Below are positions 5,805-27,511 of a DNA stretch of 29,215 bases, in pieces. Below the pieces are notes generated by a model. That model ran no database searches. It worked only from the letters and a program-made list of their open reading frames with translations, and was not told the origin of the DNA. The stretch is from a virus, in IMG/VR virus record IMGVR_UViG_3300043449_001694, positions 1 through 29,215 of that record. The stretch is one strand, 5' to 3'. Position numbers and translations under genes: made by a program. Within the stretch, counting starts at the first letter, position 1; every line of letters begins with the position of its first letter.

Positions 5805-8800
5805 CAGCGGAGCCCCACACGACGCCTTGTGCCAGGAGATTGTTGAAGTCGATCTAGGGCAAGGGAGGAGCCACGACGTGCCCCTTCTTTAATGGCTTGG
5901 CGTCGTGTTACTGCCATGGCCTCTTCCAACTGGTCTCGGCTTACATAGTCTACTCCGCCGATATTGGTAGTTTGGAATGACATATTGAGGACGGGTGAAC
6001 CGCCGTTATTTGTAGGGGTATTGCCCATGGCTTCACGTAGTGACTGGTTTGACTGAATGTTGCCTGCCGCGCTCGGGATGAAGAGTTCTGGACCCCTTTC
6101 GCCAACCATGTAGGGGCGTGACGAGGAGATTGCACCACCGCCAGCCCGCCTCCCGAACAAGCCCATGCCACCAAACCCGCCGATGGCGCTACCAAGGCCG
6201 AGGAAGATGGAGCCGATTCCGGCCAATGTGTTGGACGTGCCACCCTTGCCTAGCTGTTGGATGCCTCCGGCGATTGACATGGCACCGGCGGCCACACCAG
6301 CCATACCACCGAGGAAGTTTTGGAAGCCCTTGTTGGCCTCCTGGGCTTTGAGTGGGGCTTGTGCAAGGTTCGTATTTATTTCGTTGAGGGACTCGGCAAA
6401 TTCCGTTCCGTTTTTGCTGAGTGGGGCCAGTTGACCGAGGGCAGTCACTGACTCAACCGGGAGTGCTGTGATGGCACCACCTGTCGTAGGCAGCCCAGGG
6501 AGAACCTGTCCGCTAGTCGCTAGGGCCGTAGCAACGCGCTCGAGGGCGCTGGTATTAAGGCCAAGAGCGGAGTTGTTTTCACGCTGGAGTGCCATGGTTG
6601 GATCTTCAGGCATGAGGAAGTTCTTGAACTGCTCTTGTAAAAGCTTCTCTATTGGTGCGAAGGCATAATCGACGGCCATGCCGAGGAACTTCTCGCCGAT
6701 GGCGCGGCCCATTTCTCCGACTGCCTTGGATAGGTTGTCACCCCGTAGAAGAGAGTTGACAAAACCTTTTGTACCTTCAGTCAGGCTCCGTGCTGCCTCG
6801 TTGATCAGAGCAATGCGCAGCTGGAACTGTTCGAGTTTTGAGGCCAGCTCACCGAGCTTGGTGGCGTTGGCTCGGGCTGCGTCGCTGTACAGCTTGAATG
6901 CAGCTAGTGCCTCCGGGTCTTTTAGTGCCTCCTTATTACGTAGCTTGAGCTGCTCTAGCTCCGCATCGAGAACAGCGAGACGCTGACGTACAGGGTCGCC
7001 TTGGGCATATAACTGTTTAATTTCTGCAAACATCGTGGCAGTTTCCTGCGCCATCGTGTCAGGCAGTGTTGTCATTGCCTGCTGCAGTTCCTTGACTAAG
7101 GTCAACGCAGACTGTTTTGTGTTAAGTGGTGCGTTGGTACGCTCACGGTCAGCAGCAGCGCCGGCCCCAGCCACGGTGTACTTCAAGGCTGATCCGAAGG
7201 CATCGCTGCTAAAAGTTCCATTGACGTCCTCGAGTGATGCTTGTCCTCGGAGATACCGTCGTGCAACTTCTTTCGACACGTTCACCATTTCGTCGGTGAC
7301 GTTAGTTCCACTCGCACGTTTTGCTTTCGCGACTTGATCAATTGCAGCCATGAGGCTCTGCTCAATCAAGCGGAGACGCGCGGTTAAGGGATCAATCGAT
7401 GTCGATCCAGCTTTTGCGGCTTCCGACAAATCCAGAATCGTTGTACGAAGTGCATCTATATTGTCCCGAATCATCTCAGGTGCAGGAGCATCTGTGTAGA
7501 GTCCAGGGTCGAGCAGTCGGTTCTTTACTTCGTTTGCAGCGAGTGTATTAGCTATGTTCAGGCTTTCATTAGCTTGACGGATTGATGCTTTCAGTACAGT
7601 GTCCAGAGCAGTCTGAAGCCGTCCTACAGTTGACTCAACTGTCGCGGCGTATTCAGTAAAGCCCTTTAGTTTGGGTGGGGTTGTTGGTGCTGTTTTGATG
7701 AAGCGACGTGAACCAAGCTCAGCCTCGGCGGTCCGCAGAGCGTAGGTGCCACCGGTGGACTGTCCGTAGAGAGCCTTAGTACGCGCATTAAGTGCCTGCT
7801 CAAATGCGCCGTTATCTGAGCTAAGTGCAGCACCAAACTGCTCAACCAGCTTGTCGATCACATCCTTCGGACTAGCACCAGGAGCTACACCTAGACTTGA
7901 TGCTGCTCCTGTTTTCAGCAGAGCTAGTGATTTTGTAGCGCTGACACCCCTCTGGGCGGCAGCATTCATGAATTGATCCCGCTCTTCCGGGGTCACAATG
8001 AAGCCCTCGGCCTGCAGTGCAGCAGTGCGCATGGCGTACTCGAGAACTGCTTTGGCACTGCGAATTCGCTCGCTGGCCTCGTAGTCAGCAACCTTCTTGT
8101 TGTACTCCCCGAGTTTGATCCGAAGTTTATAGGTCTGATCCTCGAGCTTTAGCTTGTAATCGCTAACTTCTTTCTCAATGGTTTCACGCTGGCGGGCGAT
8201 GTCAAACTGTCGTTTCTGTGCCTCGGTCTGGGCATTAAACAGAGACTTCTCGTAATCTCCGAGGATCTGCGCAACTTGCTGGCGGACACCGCTAAGACCT
8301 TGTTGTTCCTGCTTAAGCTTTTGGTCTAGCGCGTTTTGGTCGAGCTGCCTGCGTGCTTCGTAGATGCTTTGCTCAGTCCTGAGATATTCTTGTCGCAGGC
8401 TAAACTCTTTGTCTACGATCTCGCGGGTGAGCTGCTTGCGCTCTTCGGCGAGGCGCGTCTCAATGTCGCGACGCTCCTTTGCCAAGAGTTGAACATCTTC
8501 TTTTGCTTTATTTTCTTGCCTGTTTTTCTCGTCAATCTTGGAAAGCTTGTCGTATTCTCTTCGTATCTCAGCTATATTTGCCTTGATCTTCTCAGGATCA
8601 AGACTTTGTGAGAAGCTGAGCGCGAATGCCTTGAAGTTATTTGCTGCGTTCTCGAGTGGTCCGTTGCTCGACTTGCCAAGATCAGCTTCTAGGTCGCGTA
8701 GCTTCCTGTACTGCTCTGAGTACTCCTCTAGGGATTTCGTTAGCTTGTCAATCCGACTGCTAACAATGCTTTCTTCAAAGGCTTTGGCCGCTTTTGTCGC

Positions 8801-22440: not shown

Positions 22441-25131
22441 TTAGACCGGCGCGGCTTTGTTCGGTAGAAGTCCGTGATCTCGACGCGGACGAGCTTGGTA
22501 CCGTGCCGCCGCTGCCTGGGTATCACCCCCTCGAATCAGCTCCACGATGTAGCCCTCCTGCTCCTCTGGGATACGCGTGAGTTTCCCTTGGTTTTTAAGG
22601 GCATACATCTCGTTGCCGCGCAGTCCGTTGAGCTCACGGAACTTGAAGCGCTTGTAGATGCTGGCGCGTTTAGCTCCCAAGCCATCGTCCTTGAAGGGCT
22701 TGTTGAACAGCACTGCGTTCTCGGGGAGCTCATCCAACTGACGGTTGAACATGCTCTTGACTTGCTTAGAGACCGCCAGCGACTGAGCTTTGGTAACCCC
22801 CTCCTTCTGGGAGAAGCTCAGGTCCGTTTGGAAGGCCACGCCATACTTGTCGAAAGCACCGGCCTTACCCTTGCGCTCAGCGACGAAGGTGACGAGCGTG
22901 TCGTCAACCGAGCCCATGCTCAGGACGTGCCCTGTTGTCGGGTTGTGCCAGGTGCTGAAGTTGTTCTCGGTGTCGACGTGCTTGAGCCTTAAGCCCTGGG
23001 CGTCTGCAGCCACATAGGCCAGGCCAAGCTTGGCTTTACCCAAGAGCTTGCTGGCTGGCTGCTGCCATTGCTTGGGAAGTTTGGCAATGTTACGGCGCAC
23101 CTGGGTGTCGGACAAGCCTTTGATGCCTTGCTCGATGTATCGGGCGGAGTTCTTGTACAGCCCCATCGACTGCCTGTTCTTGTAGGCGTACCGTCCGCCA
23201 AGGGTCAGGCCTGCCACCGTGCCAGCAATGGCGGCTGCTTTGCCTACACGACTGAGCGTGGAACCGGCTGTTCCGGATGTGGTAGGACGCTCAGCTGTCG
23301 ATGACGTCGCCGAAACAGCTGCTGTCTGTTTTGAGCACTTACGGTTATCTGGGATACCCGACTTGCCGCAGCGCTTGTCGAGACGAGCATCGACTGAGTC
23401 GCGGCGGCGCATGGCCTCGTAGGCGTTCTCGGCGGCGGCGCGTGTGGCATAGCGCGGTGTGCCATCGGGGTTCTTCTGCCGCAACAGCGCGGCGACGGCT
23501 TGACCGCGGGAACGACGGCGGGCTGGACGCTCTACGCCGGTCGCTGCGCGCGGTGCCGTGCTCGATGTGGGAACTGCCCGGCGAACGCGGGTGATCGAAC
23601 GCCATCCAGACGCTGCCCCCGCTTCGTTAACCACCCGCAGCGCCTCGCTCGGGTCGCCGACCGTCGTACCCCGCAGCTCACTAGCTGCAGTCACGAGCTC
23701 GGTGTCCGTCATGGAGAAGCTGGGCTTGGTCTGACCCATCACGACCTTGGAGTGATAGGCCTTGCGTAGTAGGAGGGCTGTACCAGATCCAGGGATAGGC
23801 CGCTGCCAGGACAGACGCTGCGCCAGGTATTGGGCGTGCCCCAGAGATGCGTCGATATACGAGCTGGCCTTGATCCCGGTACGAATACCGGGGGCGATTG
23901 TTCCGGACTCAGCGATGTCCCGAAACGCGCTGTCAAAACCACCCAGCGTGTCCTTGTAGAGCGTTTCAGCCTGGGCCAGTGGCGACTTTTTGTCGTCCAT
24001 CAGCTTGATGAAGTAGGCCTCGGTGGCCGCGTCTAAGTCGGCATCACCGCTTTTCCAGCTCGTAGCGGTCTTGTTGAGGTACTCGGGGAGGTCGCTCTGC
24101 GACTTGGGATCGAGGCCAGCCTGCTGCATCCCTGTAGTGATGCGGCTGCGTTGGGCCTCGATCACTTCGGTGAGACCACGCTGCGTGTAAATCCGGTCAG
24201 CGTTGAGATCGGTGCCCCAGCCCTGGGGACGACGGAGCCCGAAGCTACGAGTCAACAGATTGTTGGTCGAACCGACCGAGAACAGGCTGCCTTGCCCCAG
24301 ATTCAAGGTGGCGGGTCGCTGGGTTCCCCAGAACTCGCGCAGGGACCGGGACTCCCACTCAGGGAAAGCAGTTTTGGATGGGACACCGTTCGACATGTCG
24401 ACGCTGTTCATCCGATCTCGAAGGGCGTCGCGGCCTGTTCCAGCGCGGGGGTTCTGCCGACGACCGATGGCTTGGAGGTTTTGACTAGCCAAGCCCTGCC
24501 GCATCTGGGCTTGAGCCGTCGCTGAGTGCTGTAGACCTTGAATGCCTAGGGCTTCACGCGCTCGGATGCGGTCACCCACAAGGGGCGTATTCCTTGCGAG
24601 GCCATCAATCGCCGTTTTGACAGAGTCGTCGATCTTGTCACCAATAGCGCGACGATACTGCGCATTGACAGACAGCCCCCTGTGACTAAGGGCAGCGAGC
24701 ATGACGATAGCAACAGGAGCGCCAACGTAAGTAGCAAACCGGTTGATATTGTTTTTAAGCTCTTCTTTGGCTTTAAGATCACCGGGGTGCACCTTTGCGG
24801 CACCACGAGCGATTGCGCGACGACCACCCTCGAGCTCGGAGAAGCTGAGCTTGGCTACGCCTTTGCCGAGGCGCTTGATACCTCGCTCGATGTTGGCAAA
24901 TCCTGCAATCGGGTCCGAGCCTTTACCTACCGAGCGGAGGTGAGGATCGTTGCCTTCGCCTTTTAGCCGACAGTCCCACTCAGGGGGGATACAGCGGTTG
25001 CCGCACTTGGTGTTAGGAGGTGTGCAGCGTACTGAACCGCGAGTTTTGCCTCGGCGTGCGTCTAAGCGAGCACGGGCTTCGAGGTATGCAACCGTCCGGA
25101 AACCGTCGGGGTTGATGTTCGGGGTTGTCAT
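22441..25131 (-). CDS. Large Cys-motif head-region protein (896 aa), possible internal virion protein
   Basis: ATG at 25131 overlaps the portal stop (TGATG) and is preceded by GGGAGA, so it is chosen over the ATG 15 bases upstream. The N-terminus (residues about 22-54) reads RLDARRGKTRGSVRC, then CTPPNTKCGNRCIPPEWDC, followed by a Gly/Lys-rich region and a hydrophobic stretch near 133-146 (VGAPVAIVMLAALSHRG). The long middle is helical. Near 583-601 a second motif ARLDKRCGKSGIPDNRKC precedes another Ala/Gly-rich hydrophobic stretch (AAAIAGTVAGLTLGGRYAY). The last 200 residues look like a folded alpha/beta domain, with ENAVLFNKPFKDDGLGAKRA and IYKRFKFREL; the latter resembles the end of GNAT folds, but this is weak. 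Position between portal and MuF suggests an internal, possibly ejected, head protein. Confidence 0.85.
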   Translation of the reverse strand: MTTPNINPDGFRTVAYLEARARLDARRGKTRGSVRCTPPNTKCGNRCIPPEWDCRLKGEGNDPHLRSVGKGSDPIAGFANIERGIKRLGKGVAKLSFSELEGGRRAIARGAAKVHPGDLKAKEELKNNINRFATYVGAPVAIVMLAALSHRGLSVNAQYRRAIGDKIDDSVKTAIDGLARNTPLVGDRIRAREALGIQGLQHSATAQAQMRQGLASQNLQAIGRRQNPRAGTGRDALRDRMNSVDMSNGVPSKTAFPEWESRSLREFWGTQRPATLNLGQGSLFSVGSTNNLLTRSFGLRRPQGWGTDLNADRIYTQRGLTEVIEAQRSRITTGMQQAGLDPKSQSDLPEYLNKTATSWKSGDADLDAATEAYFIKLMDDKKSPLAQAETLYKDTLGGFDSAFRDIAESGTIAPGIRTGIKASSYIDASLGHAQYLAQRLSWQRPIPGSGTALLLRKAYHSKVVMGQTKPSFSMTDTELVTAASELRGTTVGDPSEALRVVNEAGAASGWRSITRVRRAVPTSSTAPRAATGVERPARRRSRGQAVAALLRQKNPDGTPRYATRAAAENAYEAMRRRDSVDARLDKRCGKSGIPDNRKCSKQTAAVSATSSTAERPTTSGTAGSTLSRVGKAAAIAGTVAGLTLGGRYAYKNRQSMGLYKNSARYIEQGIKGLSDTQVRRNIAKLPKQWQQPASKLLGKAKLGLAYVAADAQGLRLKHVDTENNFSTWHNPTTGHVLSMGSVDDTLVTFVAERKGKAGAFDKYGVAFQTDLSFSQKEGVTKAQSLAVSKQVKSMFNRQLDELPENAVLFNKPFKDDGLGAKRASIYKRFKFRELNGLRGNEMYALKNQGKLTRIPEEQEGYIVELIRGGDTQAAAARYQARPRRDHGLLPNKAAPV

Positions 25132-26960
25132 CAGTACGTCTCCCAAGCGGCTCGGAGTGCTTCGACTTCGCCCTCGGGTACAGGGGAGAGCCCTGCCACA
25201 GTCTGCCGAGGGAATAAAGCGTTGATGCCGCTCTTTGCTGCGCGCAAGGAGGCGAAGCCTGTTGCATAGGGGCCGTCAATCAGGGCGCCGTCGACGACAA
25301 AGCGGGCTCGGTAGACCTTGTAAGCCTTGGTGCGATTGGGACCAAAGACCATCAGGGGTGCGCCCTCGGTGGCATCGGTGCGTTGACCGTCGGGGCCTAC
25401 CAGATGCCCGGCTTTGACACCGCTCAGTTCGTGCGAAACAGCGATGCGTAGGCCGTGGGCCTCGTAGTGGTCAAACAGGGAGGCGTCACCACGGCCAGGT
25501 GGGAGGATTGCGGTCTGTGCTGGGTCGTCTGCTTCCTCTGCCGGCGGTAAGCCGGGTTGCTCTGGTGACGCAGCTGACAGTTGAGCCTCGTAGCCCGCCA
25601 TCTGCGATTGGAATGAGGCGTCGGTCTGGGCAACCAATTGCTCAGTGACCGCCTCGTTGAGCGTGGTGTCGATGCTGTACTCGGTGCCACCGAAGCGGGC
25701 TTCGCGTACTTCGAGGGGGTTCAGGACTCCAAGATTGATGTACTGCGCATCGACTTGAGCCATCTGCAGGCGCAGACCCGCTTTTTCCTCGTCGGTCTGG
25801 GTGAAGACACTCGGGAAGCGAACACTCCAGGATTCCGGAACTCGTCCTCGGGTGGGGCCTTCGCGGCTGGCGAGGATGTAGGTGAAGACCTCGGTCAGTG
25901 GGGTGCGGCAGTAAACCTCCTGCCACTGCTCGACCAGGGAGGCCCAGACGCGTTCCTCGAAGCGGCCTTCCTTACCCAGGCCACCGGGAGAGTCACCCAT
26001 CAGGATCGAGGCGGGCCAACCCGTGGCTGCTTGGAGATCCTTGATAAAGGGCTCGGTGGCACTGGCCATGTTGGACAGCGCACGGTTGAGGAACTGAAGG
26101 TCTTCCTCCTGGTCGACGACCATGCCGCCGTAGACGGAGCGGCTGAGGTTGTTGGCCTCGAGGCGCTTGCGCAGATCCGTCTCGTTTCCGGAAGCAATCC
26201 GCTGGAACAGGCCGGGGATCTTGTGGACAAACAGATCCGAGTCCGTGGTCATGGTTTCGAGACCCGACATCGTGGACTCGTAGCGCTTGTAGGCCTCCCA
26301 GATCAGCTGAAGGACCGACTGACCCCAGCCGGTGTTGCGGACACGGACGTTCCAGGGCAGATACAGACCATCGAAGCGGGCGACCCGGGTGTTGTGGATG
26401 CGGACGTTGGTGTACGAGCCCGTCTGGTTGGGGGTGATCCGCTGGCTGGTAGTGATCCGGTAATGCGAGGGCTTCGAGTAGTCCGTGATCGAGAAGTCCT
26501 CGGGGATCAGCTCGTGCCGTGACAGAGGAACGAAGCCGCGAACTGCGCGGATGCGGTTGAGGTCGACCGGTTCCTCCTCGGGGAGACCGTCGTCGATCAA
26601 CAGGACTAGGCCCGCTCCACCGTAGAGGCGCTGCAGTTTGACGACCTCGGAGAGGGCGTAGTGGAACTGGGTGGCCTGGAGAAAAGTCTCGACACTGCTG
26701 ATGGTGTTGTTGGCATCAGGCTCGGTGTCGCTGCCCAGGACGATGGTGGTGCGGTGGCGCAGGATCTCATCGGCGATGGCGTCGACGTAGCGACGAGGTA
26801 CGCCGTGGCTGTAAAGGGCCTCGAGCTCGGATTCTGAGAGGAAGGCTTTTGCTGCTACAGATGTTGCTGTTGTCTTGTCTCGAGATGACAGGCCCATTCC
26901 TGTCAACACGTTGACTAAAGCACCATCATTCCGGAAAGTATCGGTAGTGTTTTGCGTCAC
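25131..26960 (-). CDS. Portal protein (DUF1073 type)
   Basis: About 609 residues from GTG at 26960 (MTQNTTDTFRNDGALVNVLT); a longer form from TTG at 27002 is possible. The DUF1073 portal features are clear: an early ...LVN.LTGMG..RDK segment, RRYVDAIADEILRHRTTIVL, FHYALSEVVKLQRLYGGAGL, VHKIPGLFQRIASGNETDLR (family segment K.pgl...), and ATGWPASILMGDSPGGLGKE with EERVWASLVEQWQ, the conserved G.SP.G.N/K region. Portal dodecamers form the DNA entry vertex and anchor the motor and neck. A tail of roughly 110 residues (FDHYEAHGLRIAVSHELSGV to the end) lies beyond the usual core and contains NRTKAYKVYRARFVVDGALI; its function is unknown. No terminase is found next to it. Confidence 0.95.
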   Translation of the reverse strand: MTQNTTDTFRNDGALVNVLTGMGLSSRDKTTATSVAAKAFLSESELEALYSHGVPRRYVDAIADEILRHRTTIVLGSDTEPDANNTISSVETFLQATQFHYALSEVVKLQRLYGGAGLVLLIDDGLPEEEPVDLNRIRAVRGFVPLSRHELIPEDFSITDYSKPSHYRITTSQRITPNQTGSYTNVRIHNTRVARFDGLYLPWNVRVRNTGWGQSVLQLIWEAYKRYESTMSGLETMTTDSDLFVHKIPGLFQRIASGNETDLRKRLEANNLSRSVYGGMVVDQEEDLQFLNRALSNMASATEPFIKDLQAATGWPASILMGDSPGGLGKEGRFEERVWASLVEQWQEVYCRTPLTEVFTYILASREGPTRGRVPESWSVRFPSVFTQTDEEKAGLRLQMAQVDAQYINLGVLNPLEVREARFGGTEYSIDTTLNEAVTEQLVAQTDASFQSQMAGYEAQLSAASPEQPGLPPAEEADDPAQTAILPPGRGDASLFDHYEAHGLRIAVSHELSGVKAGHLVGPDGQRTDATEGAPLMVFGPNRTKAYKVYRARFVVDGALIDGPYATGFASLRAAKSGINALFPRQTVAGLSPVPEGEVEALRAAWETY

Positions 26961-27047
26961 GACAGCGCAAGACGCGGCGGGATATGCAAAATGTATCGCC
27001 AAATTGCAAACTTGCGCACAGGGTGCGAATGCGAGTTAGCGGTATAC

Positions 27048-27121
27048 GAGTTTAGATTCTGGATGCACGAGTTTAGATTCGCGGGGTGCGAGTTTAGATT
27101 TCAAGAACACGAGTTTAGATT
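27048..27121. repeat. Four tandem 21-bp direct repeats before the portal gene
   Basis: The 11-base core GAGTTTAGATT occurs exactly at 27048-27058, 27069-27079, 27090-27100 and 27111-27121, a strict 21-bp period. Bases between the cores differ (cores are often preceded by CAC, TAC or TGC). The array lies in the non-coding gap between the divergent portal (minus) and HNH (plus) genes. A 21-bp period is two helical turns, so a protein could bind all copies on one face of the DNA. If translated, either strand would give a 7-residue repeat, but no good gene frame uses it. Confidence 0.9.
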
Positions 27122-27202
27122 TCGAGGCCGCTGTTTTCTCTGTTGCAGACTGCGACGGGGACTTTGCTCTGGTCCGTAGGCTGGGAAAGCTGCCACGCCG
27201 GC

Positions 27203-27511
27203 ATGTTGGACCATCACATCGATGGATCCCTCCTCTGCTCAAAACGGTGCGCCAAGCTGCGATTTCGGCAGGGGATCCTCGACTCCTGGGGGTCTTCCTG
27301 CGCGTATTGCGGTAAGCCAGCCGGAACCTTGGATCATGTCCGTCCTCGGTGCAAAGGGGGGCACACCGTTGCCCACAACCTCATTGCCGCTTGCGCTGAG
27401 TGCAATCGAGGTAAAGGGTCAGAGGCGGACTGGAGAACTTGGTTTCGGAGTCAGCCCTCGTGGTCCCCGGACCGAGAAGCCAGTATTTGGGACTGGCTCA
27501 ACCCGGCATAG
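27203..27511 (+). CDS. HNH endonuclease
   Basis: About 102 residues from ATG at 27203; a TTG at 27143 would give 122. CSKRCAKLRFRQGILDSWGS precedes CAYCGKPAGTLDHVRPRCKG, then NLIAACAECNRGKGSE, a complete HNH domain: Cys pairs (CAYC and CAEC) for structural zinc, DH at the first catalytic position, N and N in the later strand-helix. The end WFRSQPSWSPDREASIWDWL is a feature I associate with Synechococcus-type HNH proteins. HNH nucleases next to packaging genes often work with the terminase in DNA cutting, but this gene is on the strand opposite to the head genes and a free-standing role cannot be excluded. Confidence 0.92.
   Translation: MLDHHIDGSLLCSKRCAKLRFRQGILDSWGSSCAYCGKPAGTLDHVRPRCKGGHTVAHNLIAACAECNRGKGSEADWRTWFRSQPSWSPDREASIWDWLNPA

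Follow-up and report, generated by a model that had tools for sequence, protein, structure and literature searches.

An array of three to five direct units with a period of 20 or 21 bp was found in the gap that precedes the portal gene in 34 of the 45 gap clusters obtained from more than 100 related viral loci. The period is common to the clades, while the core sequence is specific to each of them, and the array sits upstream of the portal gene in every locus that carries one. We propose, with a probability of about 0.5, that it is an operator or activator array of a putative head-operon promoter, the reader of which could be changed between phages. Control of the late genes fits the data best because the array is phased with a promoter-like element; among the functions suggested in the preliminary description of this DNA, the late-gene control site is thus the one that we retain, as a putative function.

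The array in the window

The window analyzed here is a viral fragment of 29,215 bases, the relevant features of which are listed in Table 1. The four repeats with an exact 21-bp period, initially noticed in the sequence alone, were confirmed. The sequence GAGTTTAGATT starts at positions 27048, 27069, 27090, and 27111 of the plus strand (spacing 21/21/21), and the base located 5' of it is also invariant in the array copies, so that the core was extended to the 12-bp sequence CGAGTTTAGATT. When the whole window was scanned, no further copy of CGAGTTTAGATT with 0 or 1 mismatch was found, and the one copy with two mismatches, at position 8397, corresponds to the chance level; the window contains no other strong site. 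The self-match of the array at lag 21 was 46/63, and the maximum observed after shuffling was 36 over all lags from 10 to 44 (60 dinucleotide shuffles, whole window). The array is far beyond chance.

Table 1. Coordinates of the array and of the neighboring features in the window.
Feature	Position	Strand	Remarks
Portal protein gene	25131..26960	-	PF06381, phrog_146; likely GTG start 26960
-10-like TACATT, putative portal/head-operon promoter	26990..26995	-	
Degenerate inverted unit GCGCAAGTTTGCAATT	27002..27017	-	Portal-proximal; centre ~14 bp upstream of the -10-like element
Direct-repeat array, four 12-bp cores CGAGTTTAGATT	27047..27121	+	Period 21 bp, variable 9-bp spacers
CGAGTTTAGATT core copies	27047-27058, 27068-27079, 27089-27100, 27110-27121	+	
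Conserved GTASSCTGnnnnAGC element immediately 5' of the HNH start	27176..27190	+	Missing where HNH is missing
HNH endonuclease gene, divergent from portal	27203..27511	+	PF14279/PF01844, phrog_2214; ATG 27203

As had also been described, the bases between the cores vary, and the 9-bp spacers differ from copy to copy. A repeat encoding heptads was considered, as a 21-bp period is a multiple of three and open frames cross the array on both strands, but the core is identical at every base between units and the spacers are free, which argues for a signal at the DNA level. The degenerate unit found in inverted orientation scored 8.2 bits with the position weight matrix (PWM), versus 22-25 bits for the direct units; none of the other best PWM matches in the window was both noncoding and on the minus strand. 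Searches against Rfam and for tRNAs gave no match.

The open frame of the portal gene reaches a TTG at 27002, and the GTG indicated in Table 1 is probably its start; the HNH open frame runs from a TTG at 27143, with similarity starting mostly at the ATG. The nearest isolates are both cyanophages, S-CBS4 by the portal (42%) and S-CBS1 by the HNH (59%), so that a cyanobacterial host is likely for the phage of the window, judging from these similarities. S-CBS4 was discarded as a carrier of the array, its TerS and TerL genes being divergent from the portal gene, with a gap of 74 bp and no array. Elsewhere in the window, the segment 28301-28353 showed 92-95% identity to hypothetical genes of the cyanophages S-RIP1 and S-CBS2.

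Arrays in related loci and their genomic context

Relatives were gathered by pattern, portal, HNH, and TerL, and the gap preceding portal was extracted from each. The 34 clusters with an array include 33 for which the best lag was 20, 21, or 40 with p < 0.06, and L238, which was counted despite a tie between lags 13 and 21. By the same lag test, no 20/21-bp array was found in the 11 other clusters, including L120, which gave a weak 19-bp signal, and L090, which gave a 13-bp signal. The first pattern scan also matched nine other sequences (L004-L010, L014, and L016), which were rejected as relatives because they belong to a different, AT-rich phage. The repeats of L014 (11803-11910), which lie inside an ORF of 386 aa, are SLDLN-type coding repeats, and their resemblance to the array (spacing 21/24 bp) is fortuitous.

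The array of the window was kept in L011-L013, L015, L017, and L018. Other clades carry unlike cores, such as AAAACTTAGAGTC in L032, GCAGAAAGATCGAG in L037, ATCTGGTAACGT in L061 and many others, CAACATGTTAG in L072, a TGTGT-type core in L075, CACGAACATGGGC in L089 and L091, AAGATNCGTTCT in L205, and AGATTNCGGGGT in L215. The portal-end unit was inverted in many arrays, with the same clade-specific core, and two to three inverted units were present at this end in L063 and L075. In each genome scanned, the array was the only strong site of its own core, and no described site of such form was found in the body of literature searched.

These data corroborate the initial proposal that the repeats are a protein-binding array and not an accident of duplication, since arrays with unlike cores share period, copy number, and place, and their inverted units repeat the core of the direct ones. 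A neutral tandem duplication, the similarity of which would be maintained by concerted evolution, is conceivable in that direct repeats can homogenise, and the variability of core and spacer did not differ significantly in the window's own class (variable columns: 7/48 in the core versus 10/36 in the spacers, p = 0.17). However, it accounts neither for spacers that are unlike between copies and inverted units with the same core, nor for the persistence of position, period, and phase over many clades, and we consider it very improbable.

In a related clade (L047, L090, L123, L124, L127, and L132), the array is absent, the -10-like element is kept, and TerS is near-identical; its gap has conserved blocks, including GTAAGGTAAACTT and AAAGTTATCG. 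In L020, L030, and L041, the array region and the HNH gene are separated by an insert of about 400 bp, which is the size of a gene and perhaps a mobile endonuclease.

The order of the late genes in the relatives is TerS, TerL, zero to several small genes, antisense HNH, array, and portal. Six loci (L089, L091, L092, L205, L207, and L215) carry the array between TerL and portal with no adjacent HNH gene, and in L091, it begins about 30 bp past the TerL stop. The array is thus a feature of the TerL/portal junction and does not require HNH. The link to HNH that had initially been suggested has to be abandoned, and of the expected location at the portal/HNH junction, only the position upstream of portal is general. 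The array could otherwise have served the HNH gene as an operator, or been a cos or nicking site cut with the help of HNH as in HK97-type packaging, since the HNH gene is adjacent and divergent in most loci and a conserved element is found at its start. This explanation is largely refuted by the six HNH-less loci and by the T4-type (Terminase_6) domains of TerL, leaving it with a very low probability. The conserved element was also considered as a cosN site, but it is lost in loci without HNH and resembles a -10 sequence; it is therefore probably the -10 or leader of the HNH promoter, which is likelier than cosN.

Phasing with a putative promoter and candidate readers

In 44 of the 45 gap clusters, the portal start is preceded at 22-33 nt by a TANNNT sequence; TANNCT occurs in 30 of 45, versus about 1 in most other distance intervals. 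No consensus -35 was found for this putative promoter. In clades with unlike cores, which were hand-picked for this measure, the units lie at about 14-17, 34-38, 55-59, 75-80 bp, and so on, from the -10-like element. The phase of the lattice relative to this element was supported by a circular R of 0.55 (p = 0.006) with an automatic measure applied to 16 class representatives, by an R of 0.71 (p = 0.0008) when only the 13 of them with strong arrays were kept, and by a p value of 0.007 for ten core classes, although all these values assume independent classes and are thus optimistic, being inflated by shared ancestry, and the core classes were grouped by eye. The phase relative to the portal start codon was weaker (p = 0.05-0.18). 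Three arrays, L205 and the degenerate L020 and L029, were out of phase, and in L071 and L079, the array was located one or two units nearer the promoter with the phase roughly kept. Overall, the helical phase between the lattice and the -10-like element tends to be preserved, with the core changing between clades.

If the array controls the head operon, its three to five direct units, which stop just upstream of TANNNT on a 20/21-bp lattice equivalent to two helical turns, would be bound by one phage-encoded sequence-specific protein, copies of which would occupy adjacent units along the same face of the helix. The bound copies may then influence RNA polymerase at a promoter that depends on an activator and is devoid of a recognisable -35. 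The specificity of this reader would be replaced or drift fast between relatives, and this would explain why the cores change and the geometry stays. Nine of the compared genomes (G001-G008 and G013) have a gene for a sigma-70-family protein, making dedicated phage transcription control plausible. Counting against an operator, the presence of the core at a single place per scanned genome argues that there is no regulon, the array-negative related clade retains its -10-like element, and the three arrays mentioned above are out of phase. In addition, no reader was found, and the variability of core and spacer in the window's own class, as given above, did not differ significantly.

The first candidate reader was TerS, which carries a helix-turn-helix (HTH). 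The period seemed linked to the type of TerS in L072, but L200 breaks this pattern. The TerS proteins of L072 and L200 are about 94% identical and differ by one HTH residue, whereas their arrays are CAACATGTTAG with a 21-bp period and ATCTGGTAACGT with a 20-bp period, respectively; moreover, L127 has an HTH identical to that of L021 and L200, L132 has nearly the same one, and both are without an array. It follows that TerS does not set the core, which speaks against the terminase-read site envisaged in the preliminary description. Phyletic profiles gave another candidate, the only family found in most array genomes and missing from the three no-array genomes, which was rejected because its sequence looks like that of a structural protein, and comparing the genes of G015, G016, and G017 one by one yielded no reader candidate.

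The main rival explanation, which we consider possible but doubtful, is a pac site that may overlap the promoter as in SPP1. A TerS ring would wrap the array with one HTH per 20-21 bp, and TerL would make its first cut nearby; recognition would depend mostly on DNA shape and spacing, leaving the core free to change. Wherever an array locus shows both TerL and portal, the array is located between the two, directly past the TerL stop in the shortest cases, and it is single in each scanned genome. In addition, the T4-type domains of TerL (PF03237/PF17289) are typical of headful packaging, and long contigs are opened at differing points. A precedent for incompletely conserved direct repeats with interchangeable TerS proteins is given by SPP1 and SF6: the pac site of SPP1 extends over promoters, only some of its direct repeats are conserved in SF6, and SF6 TerS can replace SPP1 TerS even though the DNA-binding domain of the SF6 protein is nearly non-specific (PMC4737164). 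However, neither near-identical TerS proteins with unlike arrays or none, nor phasing with a promoter-like element, would be expected of a pac site. Recognition by shape only, as proposed for SF6 TerS (PMC4737164), would survive the TerS data but leaves unexplained why inverted units share the clade core, which suggests that the sequence is read and not the shape alone.

The ends of several contigs fall near the portal start or inside the array. Ends within portal codons 20-30 (L068-L070, L027, L028, and L078) are commoner than elsewhere and could reflect either assembly breaks or a DNA end. Contig ends were not retained as evidence of packaged ends, since their clustering near the portal start is partly due to one sampling project and assembly breaks at the variable gap explain them equally well.

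A replication or partition site was also considered, in which iterons would be bound by an initiator or partition protein with diversifying specificity, as in plasmids. Four to five direct repeats of about 21 bp with a diversifying core, present at one place per genome, have an iteron-like form. Nevertheless, in G001, G005, G006, and G008 (66-72 kb), the array does not coincide with a switch in GC skew, a result that is uninformative if replication is unidirectional, no initiator gene lies nearby (the neighbors being portal, HNH, TerL, and small genes), and the late-operon location and the promoter phasing are left unexplained. The replication iteron proposed initially thus received no support, and we regard it as improbable. 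In these four genomes (L178-L193), the GC skew keeps one sign over nearly the whole genome, even across flips of the gene strand, and this may be due to unidirectional replication. G008 (L186-L189) has identical ends of 122 bp, indicating a circular assembly, and is probably complete.

More tentatively than for head-operon control itself, we propose that the family combines a fixed frame, consisting of the 20/21-bp lattice, the inverted lead unit, and the promoter phase, with swapped recognition words and a dedicated putative reader acting in head-operon control or packaging. The turnover of reader specificity would then outpace that of the terminase, portal, and HNH genes.

Comparison with known systems

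Among bacterial promoters, fhaB is preceded by a two-turn-spaced array of sites for the activator BvgA. Its units, like those described here, are about 21-22 bp apart on one DNA face, and they reach or overlap the -35 region while keeping phase with the -10; in contrast, the present array is located at a putative phage late promoter, and its core is exchanged between close relatives. The R sites of lambda cosB are read during packaging and adjoin packaging genes. The cos site of HK97 is likewise a packaging-read site beside packaging genes, and an HNH gene is near it in HK97-like phages (PMC11331095), but HNH is dispensable for the array and the phages carrying it have a TerL with T4-type domains.

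The pac sites of SPP1 and SF6 resemble the array in that their direct repeats overlap promoters beside the terminase genes and are only partially conserved despite interchangeable terminases (PMC4737164). They differ from the regular 20/21-bp lattice with inverted units, which is located upstream of portal and not at the start of the TerS gene. The 17-bp repeats of Cluster O mycobacteriophages and the stoperators of Cluster A are also short, phage-group-specific repeats that are probably bound by proteins, but they are scattered genome-wide, with more than 30 copies in Cluster O (PMC4351075), and not gathered in a single phased array.

The geometry of the array is constant while its recognition sequence changes, even with near-identical terminases. 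This family of arrays thus constitutes a natural experiment on the joint change of specificity of a DNA-binding protein and of its multi-site target. If the array is a late switch, it would offer a route to the late regulator of a little-studied phage group, and if it is a pac site, it would support recognition by spacing and shape.
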